DNA from: a virus
Length of the DNA stretch: 23,107 bases
Reading direction: 5' to 3' (one strand)
IMG/VR virus record: IMGVR_UViG_3300037583_000049
Coordinates: 1-23,107 of that record
Part shown: one piece after another, positions 7,546 through 16,579 of the stretch
Layout of the letters: each line of letters begins with the position of its first letter
Position numbering within the stretch: position 1 is the stretch's first letter
Program-made: the position numbers and the translations under genes
The notes under the pieces: model-generated
Database searches by the model: none
Seen by the model: the letters and a program-made list of their open reading frames with translations, nothing else
Told to the model about the DNA's origin: nothing

Positions 7546-7856
7546 TGAATGCCTTTGCCATGGCCATGGATGCGCTGTTTGCGGACGTGAACCTCGGGCT
7601 GGATGCCACCTGGTATCCGGCCGGTGGGGCGCCACAACCTGTCCGCGTGATCCGCAAGGCGCCGGACGAGGTGACCTCCTTCGGGTCCGCGCAGATCCTG
7701 TCGGAGACCACGCTGGTCGATGCGCGTGTCTCCGAGATGGCGAACCCCAGGCCCGGCGATGGCATCACCATTGGGGCCGACAACTTCACGATCCAGGGGG
7801 AGCCCCGGCGCGACCGGGATCGGCTCATCTGGACCCTCGAACTGGTGCCGGCATGA
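7545..7856 (+). CDS. Head-tail connector, gpFII-like
   Basis: A 103-residue protein with a helical N-terminus (NAFAMAMDALFADVNLG) and a beta-rich remainder: ATWYPAGGAPQPVRVIRKAPDE, then LVDARVSEM, PGDGITIGADNFTIQG and RLIWTLEL. The GDGITIG/FTIQGEP pattern and the size match gpFII-like proteins (lambda gpFII is 117), which join the capsid to the tail. The ATG shares one base with the capsid stop, so translation is probably coupled. It is followed by the DUF6441 gene with an ATGA overlap. The family call is by pattern and position, not by alignment. Confidence 0.72.
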   Translation: MNAFAMAMDALFADVNLGLDATWYPAGGAPQPVRVIRKAPDEVTSFGSAQILSETTLVDARVSEMANPRPGDGITIGADNFTIQGEPRRDRDRLIWTLELVPA

Positions 7857-8485
7857 GGCTGAAGATCGACTTCGACCCTGATCTCGTTGCCATGCTGCAG
7901 GAAGAGGTAAGCGCCGGTGAGCGGGCCGTGAAGGCTGCGATGGCGCAGGCCGGAGGGGACCTGAAACAGGCTTGGCGTCGGCAGATCACGGGTGCCGGCC
8001 TCGGCCACCGCCTGCCACGCACCATCCGCAACCGCACCTATCCGCAGCAGGGCGACAGCTTCGATGCGGCGGCGTTTGTCTGGTCGAACGCCCCCGAGAT
8101 TATCGGCGCGCATGACCGGGGCGTGCTGATCCGCTCGAAACGGGGCTTCTGGCTGGCGATCCCGCTGCCCGCCGCCGGCAAGGGGCGGCGCGGGGCAAAG
8201 CTGACACCGGGCGAATGGGAACGGCGGAGGGGCCTGCGCCTGCGCTTCGTCTATCGCCGCCGCGGTCCCAGCCTGCTGGTGGCTGATGGGCGGCTCAACA
8301 CGAAGGGTCTCGGTGTCGCCTCCCGCTCGAAAACCGGACGCGGCCGTGCCACCGTGCCGATCTTCCTGCTGGTCCCGCAGGTGAAGTTGCCGAAGCGGCT
8401 GAACCTCGACCGCGACGCCGAGCGGGCGCTGGACGGCCTGCCGGGGCTGATCGTGTCGAATTGGGTGAAGGGGAGGATCCGTTAG
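7853..8485 (+). CDS. DUF6441 family phage protein (tail completion position)
   Basis: A 210-residue protein. The sequence fits DUF6441, a family I recall mainly from alphaproteobacterial prophages: N-terminal LKIDFDPDLVAMLQEEV, the AWRRQITGAGLGHRL motif near 40-54, GAHDRGVLIRSKRGFWLAIP near 86-105, LRFVYRRRGPSLLVA near 130-144, and FLLVPQVKLPKRLNLDRDAE near 171-190. It is very basic. The position between the connector and the tail terminator is where lambda has gpZ, a minor tail protein needed for correct head-tail joining, so a similar role is inferred. It overlaps the previous gene (ATGA). After it, the operon is interrupted by an opposite-strand gene. Confidence 0.75.
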   Translation: MRLKIDFDPDLVAMLQEEVSAGERAVKAAMAQAGGDLKQAWRRQITGAGLGHRLPRTIRNRTYPQQGDSFDAAAFVWSNAPEIIGAHDRGVLIRSKRGFWLAIPLPAAGKGRRGAKLTPGEWERRRGLRLRFVYRRRGPSLLVADGRLNTKGLGVASRSKTGRGRATVPIFLLVPQVKLPKRLNLDRDAERALDGLPGLIVSNWVKGRIR

Positions 8486-8487
8486 CG

Positions 8488-8564
8488 ACTCATCCAGACG
8501 GTGCCACAACGTCAGAGATCGACGCCCCTGAGTATCGACAGCCAGTCTTCGAACTCATCCAGAC
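8488..8564. repeat. 12-base direct repeat at cargo gene 3' end
   Basis: ACTCATCCAGAC occurs at 8488-8499, in the gap between the convergent genes, and again at 8553-8564, inside the 3' end of the minus-strand gene. The copies are 65 bases apart. A perfect 12-base repeat this close is unlikely by chance, but its meaning is unknown. Confidence 0.5.
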
Positions 8565-9468
8565 CATACTTGTTCTTTGCCAGATTGCACGCGAGATGCG
8601 TGATGGCGACATTTGCATCGTCGTAGGCGCCGTTGGCGCTGTCGGTTCGATCCGCAGAGGGCTGGAGCATCTTGTTGCCTCCACCGGCAACGAGCGCGCC
8701 ACCGCACAGGGCGCATCGTCCACCTTGTTCGCCCCATTTACGGACGAGGAGAGCATTGAGATCGGAGAGGTTCGGCGCCGAGCGCAGCGGATTGACTTTC
8801 ACTCCGGTCTCTCCGCCGCGCTTGACACGCTCAATGATCAGCATCGCCATCCGATAGGCTTCTTGCCTTATCGAAGGCTCGACCTCTGCCGAAACGCTGC
8901 TGCGCAGTTCGAGGTAATTGGCGACGTCTTCGCGAAGGTTCAGGGTTATGGGCTCGATTTCGAGCGCCATAACTGCCTCTCGCTCGGCGCCGGTCGCTTC
9001 GACGACAGCGCCTCGATTGGCGATCTCGGCGAAGGATCGGTATGCCATCGGGATCGTGTCGTGTGCGGCGGGATATGGCGGCCCGACCATGTTGGCGGCT
9101 GCCAGCACCGCCATCGAGTGGGGCCAGCGATCGCCCCATTGCGCATTCGAGTTCGCCCAGACGTCCGGAGGCACGATCTTGCGTGTCTCGAGGATCTGGT
9201 TGGGCTCGATAGTCACTGCCGAAATAAGGCGGCTTCGGTGTTCCGGCATGCGGGTCATCTCGGCGCTAGTCGTGCCGACGTAAACGAGAACATCCCGCCC
9301 AGCCACGAACTCACGTCGGAGCCGATCACCGACGGACCGCTTGGTGAAGGACACGCAGGGCCACTCATCACTGATCTGGCCCCATTCGCTCTTCAAGAAC
9401 ACTCGTCCATCGGGCTTCATCATATCGGATACGCGCATGTTCCCGAAAATGATTGAAAATGAGCGCAC
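8512..9468 (-). CDS. HNH endonuclease with possible PUA/EVE-like N-terminus (cargo)
   Basis: About 318 residues if started at the GTG at 9468; an ATG at 9438 (308 residues) is an alternative. Neither has a convincing ribosome site. The C-terminus is a zinc-type HNH nuclease: CALC (C252, C255), PSADRTD (D273/R274), AYDDANVAITHLACNLAKNK (N286, H291, C294, N295, K298). The usual first catalytic His is not obvious, as in some phage HNH proteins with S-x-DR. The N-terminal 160 residues suggest a PUA/EVE-like fold: FSIIFGN, VLVYVGTT, RSRLISAVTI, GDRWPHSMAV, and HDTIPMAYRS. EVE/PUA-like plus HNH would fit a nuclease that cuts modified DNA, but this half is a hypothesis. It lies opposite to the late operon, between two genes normally adjacent, and is lower in GC (52% by hand count in 8821-8880, 75% in 8221-8280). 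This suggests a later acquired gene, perhaps expressed in the lysogen. Confidence 0.65.
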   Translation of the reverse strand: MRSFSIIFGNMRVSDMMKPDGRVFLKSEWGQISDEWPCVSFTKRSVGDRLRREFVAGRDVLVYVGTTSAEMTRMPEHRSRLISAVTIEPNQILETRKIVPPDVWANSNAQWGDRWPHSMAVLAAANMVGPPYPAAHDTIPMAYRSFAEIANRGAVVEATGAEREAVMALEIEPITLNLREDVANYLELRSSVSAEVEPSIRQEAYRMAMLIIERVKRGGETGVKVNPLRSAPNLSDLNALLVRKWGEQGGRCALCGGALVAGGGNKMLQPSADRTDSANGAYDDANVAITHLACNLAKNKYGLDEFEDWLSILRGVDL

Positions 9469-9508
9469 GTGCAATTCGGCAAGTACGTCTTCACTCTGAG
9501 GTTCACCG

Positions 9509-9928
9509 TTGCCCACCCCCCGCGAAACCATCCTCGCCGCGCTGCATGCGCGGCTCTCGGCGTTGCCCGCCACCGTCCTGCGGGGCGAAGTGCTGCCCGA
9601 ACGCGTGCCGGCCGGGGGCCTGCTGATTCTTCGCGACGGCGAGCCGGGGGAGCCGGAGGTGACGCTCTCGCCGCTCGCCTACCATTACCAACACCGCGTC
9701 GAGATCGAGGCGGTGGTACAGGGCGCCGACCGTGATACCGCCTTCGATACGCTCTGCGCCAGCATCGGTACGGCGCTCGCCGTTGACCGGACGCTAGGCG
9801 GCCTCTGCGAATGGGTCGAGGCGGAAGCGCCGCGGCCGGTCGATCTGCCCATCGAAGGGGCGGCGAGCCTCAAGGCGGCGGTGATACCCGTCGTCCTGCA
9901 CTACACCACGGCCGATTCGCTCGGCTGA
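9509..9928 (+). CDS. Tail terminator-like protein (gpU position)
   Basis: A 139-residue protein. The start is TTG at 9509, with GAGG 7 bases upstream; a TGA at 9497-9499 rules out an earlier in-frame start. The N-terminus is a helix (RETILAALHARLSAL), followed by beta strands (GLLILRDGEPGEPEVTLSP, YHYQHRVEIEAVVQ), a helix (DTAFDTLCASIGTAL) and a last strand (AAVIPVVLHYTTAD). This alpha/beta pattern and the position just before the tail tube gene match tail terminators, which cap the tail tube and bind the head. The unusual start codon may reflect rearrangement when the neighbouring cargo gene arrived. Database entries of this type are sometimes named acyl-CoA transferase without basis, to my recollection. 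Confidence 0.65.
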   Translation: MPTPRETILAALHARLSALPATVLRGEVLPERVPAGGLLILRDGEPGEPEVTLSPLAYHYQHRVEIEAVVQGADRDTAFDTLCASIGTALAVDRTLGGLCEWVEAEAPRPVDLPIEGAASLKAAVIPVVLHYTTADSLG

Positions 9929-9950
9929 TCTCACATCATAGGAGAACAAG

Positions 9951-10889
9951 ATGGCACGCGCCCAGGGGGCGCGGTCGCAGCTCGCGGCCGCGTTCGAGAC
10001 GACCTATGGCACCGCACCGGCTTCCGGCTTCATGCAGATGCCCTTTGCCAGCGCCTCGCTGGGAGCCGAGCAGCCGCTGCTGGCCTCGGAACTACTCGGC
10101 TACGGCCGCGACCCGCTGGCGCCATTGAAGGATGCGGTGACGGCCGATGGCGACGTCACCGTGCCGCTCGACGCCGAGGCCTTTGGCTTCTGGCTGAAGG
10201 CCGCCTTTGGGGCACCGACCACCACGGGCACCACCAACAAGACCCACACCTTCAAGTCCGGCAGCTGGACCCTGCCCAGCATGGCGATTGAGGTGGCGAT
10301 GCCCGAGATCCCGCGTTTCGCCATGTACACGGGCTGCGTGCTGGACCAGTTCAGCATCGCCATGCAGCGCTCGGGGTTGCTGACAGCGGATGTGAAGCTG
10401 GTGGCGCAGGGAGAGAACGTCGCCACGGCCACGGCGGCTGGCACCCCCACGGCCTACGCCCTGCAGCGCTTCGGCCACTTCAACGGCGCGATCAAGCGCA
10501 ACGGCACGGCGCTCGGCAACATCGTCTCGGCCGATCTCACCTATGCCAACAATGTCGAACGGATCGAGACCATCCGCAACGATGGCCGCATCGACGGGGC
10601 CGACCCCTCGATTGCCGCGCTGACCGGCAAGATCGACGTGCGCTTTGCCGACACCACGCTGATGGACCAGGCGCTGAACGGGACGGCCGCCAGCCTCGAG
10701 TTCTCCTGGACTATCTCGGCGAATGTGAGCCTGACCATCACCGCCCATGCCGTTTATCTCCCGCGCCCCCGGGTGGAAATCCAGGGACCGCAGGGCATCC
10801 AGGCCAGTTTCGACTGGCAGGCGGCTTACGACTCCGTGGCCGGGCAGATGTGCACGGTCGTCCTCAAGAACCAGGTGGGGAATTACTGA
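9951..10889 (+). CDS. Phage tail tube protein
   Basis: A 312-residue protein that would stack in rings to form the tail tube. The opening ARAQGARSQLAAAFETTYGT is typical of siphovirus tail tube proteins with an N-terminal arm, followed by alternating beta strands: DGDVTVPLDAEAFGFWLKAAFG near 65-87, HTFKSGSWTLPSMAIEV near 98-114 and ADLTYANNVERIETI near 192. The C-terminal SASLEF-like region and VSLTITAHAVYLPRPRVEI end the core. A strong ribosome site (AGGAGA, 9940-9945) precedes the ATG, as expected for an abundant structural protein. It is followed by the chaperone gene with a one-base overlap. Confidence 0.85.
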   Translation: MARAQGARSQLAAAFETTYGTAPASGFMQMPFASASLGAEQPLLASELLGYGRDPLAPLKDAVTADGDVTVPLDAEAFGFWLKAAFGAPTTTGTTNKTHTFKSGSWTLPSMAIEVAMPEIPRFAMYTGCVLDQFSIAMQRSGLLTADVKLVAQGENVATATAAGTPTAYALQRFGHFNGAIKRNGTALGNIVSADLTYANNVERIETIRNDGRIDGADPSIAALTGKIDVRFADTTLMDQALNGTAASLEFSWTISANVSLTITAHAVYLPRPRVEIQGPQGIQASFDWQAAYDSVAGQMCTVVLKNQVGNY

Positions 10890-15772: not shown

Positions 15773-15995
15773 ATTCCTGATCTGGCTGGTTGCGGCACTG
15801 GGTGCGCTCGGGGGCCTGGTGCTCGGCCGCCTCTGGGGCCGCGTGGAAGGAAAGCGTCAGGGCAAACGGGAGGCAGAACGCGATGCATTGGAAGACACGA
15901 TCGAGCGCACCGAGCGCGGGCGCGAAGCGGTGCGCGATGGCCGCGGCGCTGGCGATCCTGTTGACCGGCTGCGCCAAAACGATGGTGCCTGGTGA
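15765..15995 (+). CDS. i-spanin, Rz-like
   Basis: A 76-residue protein with one N-terminal membrane segment (about 3-22, FLIWLVAALGALGGLVLG) and a charged helical domain with coiled-coil character (GKRQGKREAERDALEDTIERTERG), the layout of an inner-membrane spanin. It would bridge the periplasm and, with an outer-membrane lipoprotein, fuse or disrupt the outer membrane in the last step of lysis. A lipobox-bearing reading frame overlaps its 3' half in another frame, as Rz1 overlaps Rz in lambda. Its TGA overlaps the ATG of the HNH endonuclease gene. The call rests on topology, size and context. Confidence 0.68.
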   Translation: MAEFLIWLVAALGALGGLVLGRLWGRVEGKRQGKREAERDALEDTIERTERGREAVRDGRGAGDPVDRLRQNDGAW

Positions 15996-16068
15996 TGGAA
16001 GTGCCAATCAACAGACCAACGCAAATTGCACCTTCTCTGGTGCGCGAGCTCTTGCACTACGATCCTGA
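15883..16068 (+). pseudogene. Truncated o-spanin lipoprotein start (Rz1-like remnant)
   Basis: A reading frame inside the i-spanin gene encodes a lipoprotein signal: basic residues, then MAAALAILLTGC with a perfect lipobox (LTGC; Cys 30 counted from the ATG at 15883, or Cys 12 from the ATG at 15937). This is the overlap seen in Rz/Rz1 pairs. Shortly after the lipobox the frame enters the HNH gene, which is clearly coding in another frame from 15995, and ends at 16066-16068. I read it as the 5' end of the original o-spanin gene, cut off by the HNH gene. A complete lipoprotein gene follows the HNH gene at 16548. It might still be translated as a short lipopeptide. Confidence 0.45.
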
Positions 16069-16579
16069 CACCGGCCAATTGACATGGAAGTCCCGAAAAC
16101 CCTGTCATTTCAAGCACTGCGAGCGTGATCCGGATTGGGTATGCAAGATCTGGAACGCCAAGTACTCCGGTCGTTCCGCTTTTGGGCGTCGGCAACATGG
16201 CTATGTCGCTGGCCACGTCCTCGGGGTGAACGTCTATGCCCATAGAGTGGCTTACGTGATCATGACGGGGGCATGGCCCGCCAAACAAATCGACCACATC
16301 AACGGCCAGCGTGACGACAATCGCTGGCAGAATCTCCGGCTTGTTGATCCACAGGAGAATTCGAGAAACACGGCGATCTCCCGCTGTAACAGTTCAGGTG
16401 TCGTTGGCGTCAGCTGGAACCGGGAGAAGCGGCGATGGTGGGCTTACATCAACGAGGGAAACAGGCAGCGCAGGTTGCTGGGAGCTTTCAGATCGAAAGC
16501 CGATGCTGTGGCCGCGCGAAAGGCAGCGGAGAAGCAGTTTGGATATCATGAAAATCATGGCCGCAAGCCTGCTGCTTAG
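15995..16579 (+). CDS. HNH homing-type endonuclease with AP2 domain
   Basis: A 194-residue protein (from the ATG at 15995; a GTG at 15992 adds one residue). Residues 13-34 (PSLVRELLHYDPDTGQLTWKS) are the usual opening of this family. The HNH core is AHRVAYVIMTG (H83), then AKQIDHINGQRDDNRWQNLRLV (D100/H101, N113). Residues 133-183 form an AP2-type DNA-binding domain: SSGVVGVSWNREKRRWWAYI and LLGAFRSKADAVAARKAA. Such free-standing HNH-AP2 genes act as homing endonucleases in phages. Its GC is visibly lower than its neighbours. It lies between the i-spanin and the o-spanin gene and overlaps both: the i-spanin TGA overlaps its ATG, and its 3' end overlaps the o-spanin start by 32 bases. This suggests insertion into a spanin pair. 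Confidence 0.88.
   Translation: MEVPINRPTQIAPSLVRELLHYDPDTGQLTWKSRKPCHFKHCERDPDWVCKIWNAKYSGRSAFGRRQHGYVAGHVLGVNVYAHRVAYVIMTGAWPAKQIDHINGQRDDNRWQNLRLVDPQENSRNTAISRCNSSGVVGVSWNREKRRWWAYINEGNRQRRLLGAFRSKADAVAARKAAEKQFGYHENHGRKPAA

Follow-up and report, generated by a model that had tools for sequence, protein, structure and literature searches.

Reader modules that have been recombined with HNH or GIY-YIG nucleases are the pattern of modification-dependent nucleases (PMC11037411, PMC7897488). In VcaM4I, an EVE domain (residues 1-147) is followed by a linker (148-178) and an HNH domain (179-309) (PMC7897488), and the virus-encoded HHPV4I is a further modification-dependent endonuclease (PMC10101028). 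The defence hotspots that have been described in P2/P4 prophages lie near cos/replication, repressor or integrase (PMC9122126, PMC9519451). The locus analysed here, an antisense gene between two late genes of a 23.1-kb virus record (the whole of which is referred to as the window), falls among these already known kinds, reader-HNH nucleases and prophage defence hotspots; what is new is the gene family and the slot that it occupies, as variants of them.

The product of this gene resembles VcaM4I (PMC7897488) in that both proteins are ~309 aa in length and consist of an N-terminal (in our case putative) reader of ~150-165 aa, a linker and a C-terminal HNH domain; like VcaM4I, it probably stands alone. 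However, its front domain shows no significant sequence match to EVE, only a weak one bridged by a homologue. Like the wH/PUA-HNH and wH-GIY-YIG modification-dependent endonucleases (PMC11037411), the family has putative readers recombined with HNH or GIY-YIG ends, but its front domains are of another kind, and no winged-helix match to them was found. As with HHPV4I (PMC10101028), the gene is virus-borne. We consider it rather probable that the protein is a stand-alone, restriction-type nuclease carried by a prophage, in which a front reader of a probably modified base is coupled to an HNH domain, and that it protects against other phages.

The gene runs on the minus strand, and the DUF6441 gene and the tail terminator gene on either side of it are both on the plus strand (Table 1). 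Its description in the original prediction as a low-GC gene that splits these late genes is borne out by its GC content of 0.61 (GC3 0.71), against 0.67-0.71 (GC3 0.84-0.89) in the neighbouring late genes. The predicted gene and its end at 8512 also stand, but its start does not. The alignment of homologues begins only at MRVSDMMKP, and everything from that M on is conserved, whereas upstream of it the frames of three copies (L002, L006 and L011) are closed by stops a few codons away and the other copies diverge. The true start is therefore the ATG at 9438 and not 9468. Accordingly, FSIIFGN, one of four motifs originally cited for the front half, lies upstream of the gene and is not protein, while the other three (VLVYVGTT, RSRLISAVTI and RWPHSMAV) are located in the conserved front domain. 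Among the 10 copies in the slot, dN/dS ranges from 0.03 to 0.16 (median 0.058, or ~0.06; front domain 0.045, HNH domain 0.065). This purifying selection shows that the gene is real and not a frame left open by chance. A lysogen, Rubellimicrobium thermophilum DSM 16684, has a copy with 95% identity. The length of the frame is by itself weak evidence in such GC-rich DNA (308 codons versus a maximum of 298 in shuffles). The window protein had no match in Pfam, NCBIfam or PADLOC, and a PDB sequence search yielded none for the single protein or for its front domain. No relatives were found in the phage collection, and viral scans with divergent members gave nothing new. The sigma-70 consensus was looked for in the leader and was not found. 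A second low-GC gene is present among the tail genes of the window (15992-16579, plus strand, 195 aa; GC of the region ~0.56), and its product (QIDHINGQRDDNRWQNLR...) looks by eye like an HNH_3/AP2-type homing endonuclease.

Table 1. Features of the locus (positions in the window)
Feature	Position	Strand	Remarks
DUF6441 late gene	7853..8485	+	left border of the slot; phrog_6367
Cargo slot	8486..9508		1023 bp in the window; empty or with another load in relatives
Reader-HNH gene (reader putative)	8512..9438	-	308 aa; ATG at 9438, stop codon at 8512-8514; originally predicted as 8512-9468; based on homologue alignment and dN/dS
C-terminal HNH nuclease domain	8515..8769	-	residues 224-308 (last 85); CALC...ADRTDS...N...ITHLACN; phrog_1035, phrog_3322, DraIII
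Linker	8770..8943	-	residues 166-223; mainly helical in a low-confidence model; placed like the linker helix of VcaM4I
Front domain, probable reader module, remote EVE/PUA-like	8944..9438	-	residues 1-165; invariant W26-P27, W105, Y133
Leader	9439..9508	-	70 bp, from the gene to the tail-terminator start; Shine-Dalgarno-like GGGA ahead of the ATG
Tail terminator gene	9509..9928	+	right border of the slot; phrog_4204

The HNH end, proposed from CALC...ADRTD...HLACN, was confirmed: these motifs are present and conserved, and the domain matches HNH/endonuclease VII profiles of PHROGs (E 3e-6 and 1e-5), with no match in Pfam. In a 17-sequence alignment, C242, C245, H281 and C284 are invariant and N276 and N285 nearly so. 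Where HNH domains classically have their first histidine, this alignment reads D263-R264, and because that histidine appears to have been replaced by D-R, we only infer catalysis. Among PDB profiles, the type IIP HNH restriction enzyme DraIII (PDB 4l0k) comes closest to the HNH end; this similarity is weak (E 0.002), and none was detected between DraIII and the front domain of the window protein.

The front 165 residues, for which a PUA/EVE-like fold had been suggested, matched no model in Pfam (EVE included), NCBIfam or PADLOC. Two AlphaFold models were of low confidence (pLDDT 39 and 41) and gave no usable fold for the front domain, and Foldseek searches with them returned nothing under E 0.001, that is, noise, the weak matches to YTH domains (E ~5) being left unused. 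The family profile of the front domain, compared with EVE using hhalign, scored E 0.22-0.42, not above reversed and unrelated controls. The profile signal came only through a bridging homologue (L181/L032), which aligns with the window's front domain over 155 columns (profile comparison, probability 98%, E 1.6e-14). The sole Pfam match of the bridging domain of L181 up to E 10 is EVE, although at E 0.018 this match is weak and below the cut-off. L181 and L032 together aligned with the EVE profile at E 3.7e-4, with reversed and unrelated controls at 0.085 or higher. The segment that aligned, GDLILIY...GKALGFLEV, has its counterpart in GRDVLVYVGTT...RLISAVTI of the window protein, which falls at the expected strands and contains two of the motifs originally cited. 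The suggestion of a PUA/EVE-like front half thus finds a remote echo in a bridge that weakly matches only EVE, but no match in the window protein or the family profile. By analogy with P24, W82 and Y130 of VcaM4I, rather than by alignment, a base pocket may be formed by the invariant W26-P27, W105 and Y133.

As a module, the front half is separable: it has been paired with different nucleases (HNH and GIY-YIG), and the swapping is seen directly within the slot. In one slot locus (L013), the same HNH end (82%) is joined to a different front domain, which we refer to as beta, and in the slot of another phage (L094) beta (75% over 173 residues) is joined to a GIY-YIG/T5orf172 end (T5orf172, E 4e-5). 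The similarity of beta to EVE (E 0.006) is too weak for a claim. The front domain of the window protein is found again, with GIY-YIG-like ends, in the chromosomal genes of L181 and L032; in L181, the next gene is a PD-T7-1 homologue. Relatives of the beta front are also fused to HNH_2 nucleases (L123:1087-2352, L124:1033-2349 and L125:1447-2385). Type I R-M genes (HsdS-like and HsdR-like) flank the first of these, and a C5-methyltransferase gene adjoins the second, these neighbours having been named by eye.

Outside the slot, homologues with 31-76% identity are present on alphaproteobacterial plasmids and chromosomes, and the plasmid copies are not accompanied by phage genes. On Sinorhizobium plasmids, the homologue adjoins a true Gabija pair (GajA, E 1e-274; GajB, E 3e-240), and on the side away from Gabija there are toxin-antitoxin genes and a small restriction-like gene of the type II methyl-directed kind. 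In L014, a 149-aa product directly downstream of the homologue (L014:6993-7442) matches type II methyl-directed restriction in PADLOC (E 2e-26) and weakly DUF6998, and may be a partner of the homologue. In several Sinorhizobium plasmid copies (L018, L021 and L042), the frame is split near the start of the HNH domain, which suggests decay or silencing of some copies. Other homologues lie beside HsdM, HsdS (type I R-M), PtuA and PtuB (Septu) in L133, beside HsdM and an integrase in L038 and, in Caulobacter, next to a further HNH nuclease and an nSTAND3 protein.

These neighbourhoods bear on the main rival explanation, namely that the protein is a type II restriction enzyme, either orphan or conventional. 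Its front domain would read an unmodified sequence, and host or phage methylation of that site would protect self. This rival takes its place from methyltransferases that lie near some relatives. In a phage (L130), the homologue is directly downstream of two type II-like methyltransferases; with HsdM adjacent in L038 and L133 as well, not every copy stands alone. Genes with a related HNH end and a DUF3427-like front (L031/L135) lie beside Vsr and a C5-cytosine methyltransferase, and the arrangement in L135 (L135:4816-6475 and 8914-9984) is probably a complete R-M system. The DUF3427-like match in L031 was below the cut-off (E 7e-4) and is not relied on. That the HNH end comes closest, among PDB profiles, to the type II enzyme DraIII also fits this explanation. 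However, no methyltransferase is present in the slot or among the annotated genes adjacent to the homologue in the Sinorhizobium, Acetobacter and Caulobacter contexts, which favours a stand-alone enzyme, and without such protection a type II enzyme should be lethal to its own host. We regard a type II enzyme as unlikely.

The slot was surveyed in 77 non-redundant loci that hold both flanking genes (within L043-L122). In two of these (L054 and L097) the slot is empty, and the DUF6441 and tail terminator genes abut, overlapping or ~2 bp apart. The remaining 75 loci carry inserts of 261 to 2850 bp, on either strand, which fall into ~40 unrelated cargo types by translated similarity and are in every case AT-richer than the flanks (GC 0.57 versus 0.70). 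Of the sampled loci, 13 carry the HNH gene and L013 carries the chimera, but most of these loci were fetched for having the gene, and the count is therefore no estimate of frequency. Most cargos have no defence annotation, but among the others several are members of known systems: the inventory includes a prokaryotic viperin (pVip; L055, E 1e-87), PDC-S20 (L050/L051), PD-T7-1 (L117, E 6e-180), AbiEi/AbiEii, a pPIWI-associated nuclease (Aga nuclease/pP_pnuc), ParDE toxin-antitoxin, NYN and PIN-like genes. Because part of the cargo looks metabolic (sulfate permease, decarboxylase and hydrolase), the slot is best described as a general moron site that holds many defence genes. In L045, the 3' end of the DUF6441 gene is repeated beyond the cargo, near the tail-terminator start, suggesting that recombination or duplication at the DUF6441 end brought this cargo in.

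The junction thus displays the features of a hotspot: its place between two conserved genes is constant, turnover of its cargo is high, defence genes form part of that cargo, and some sites are empty. As in the P2/P4 hotspots (PMC9122126, PMC9519451), this is a small high-turnover locus between two conserved phage genes that is loaded with defence systems, but it differs from them in its location within the late structural block, between the DUF6441 and tail terminator genes, and in having cargo on either strand. A limited keyword search yielded no description of the slot, and DUF6441 was not mentioned in the literature searched. Given the known defence genes in the same slot and the Gabija, Septu and type I R-M genes next to relatives, the anti-phage role originally proposed for the gene is strongly indicated.

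An anti-phage role could also be played by an HNH effector that responds to something other than modification, such as a phage protein or a DNA structure, with the front domain serving as another kind of sensor. The many kinds of defence genes held by the slot are in keeping with such an effector, as is the lack of a confident AlphaFold fold for the front domain. In contrast, the front modules occur joined to either of two nuclease families, which is also seen in known modification-dependent enzymes. This and the EVE signal of the bridging homologue point away from it, and we rank this explanation after the type II enzyme, as likewise improbable.

HNH genes are common as homing elements, and together with the low GC content and the insertion between late genes, this could suggest a selfish homing-type HNH endonuclease. 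However, the slot accepts ~40 unrelated cargos, the homologues in defence islands share no common flanking site, and the front domain is under strong purifying selection (median dN/dS 0.045); we judge a homing origin very unlikely. That the gene serves in tail structure or morphogenesis, as its position among the late genes might suggest, is scarcely credible given its antisense orientation, the presence of the same family on plasmids without phage genes, its absence from most relatives (which have unrelated genes instead) and the two empty sites. The comparison with related prophages that the original prediction had called for therefore identifies the gene as dispensable cargo rather than a part of the tail, and both the homing and the structural readings are rejected on the slot evidence.

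For the modification-dependent nuclease that we prefer, a mechanism can be proposed by analogy with EVE/PUA readers. The feature that the front domain would read in incoming DNA is most likely a modified base, and its detection would license the HNH domain, in the manner of VcaM4I. We propose that transcription proceeds from the gene's own leader and runs against the late operon, so that the gene could be expressed in the lysogen, where the nuclease would protect both the host and the prophage against other phages. Most likely, the gene is therefore a weapon against rival viruses and not a part of the virus particle.

In a broader perspective, we give about even odds that the DUF6441/tail-terminator junction, largely of alphaproteobacterial prophages, is a previously unreported defence hotspot within the structural block and a workshop in which readers are recombined with HNH and GIY-YIG nucleases, the window gene being the type member of a family of modification-dependent nucleases with an unrecognized PUA-like reader. 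The family itself is compact and unannotated and poses a testable question as to its substrate, and the slot is a place in which more such genes may be found. The swapping of front domains and nucleases in a single slot represents a route by which new restriction specificities can arise in phages.
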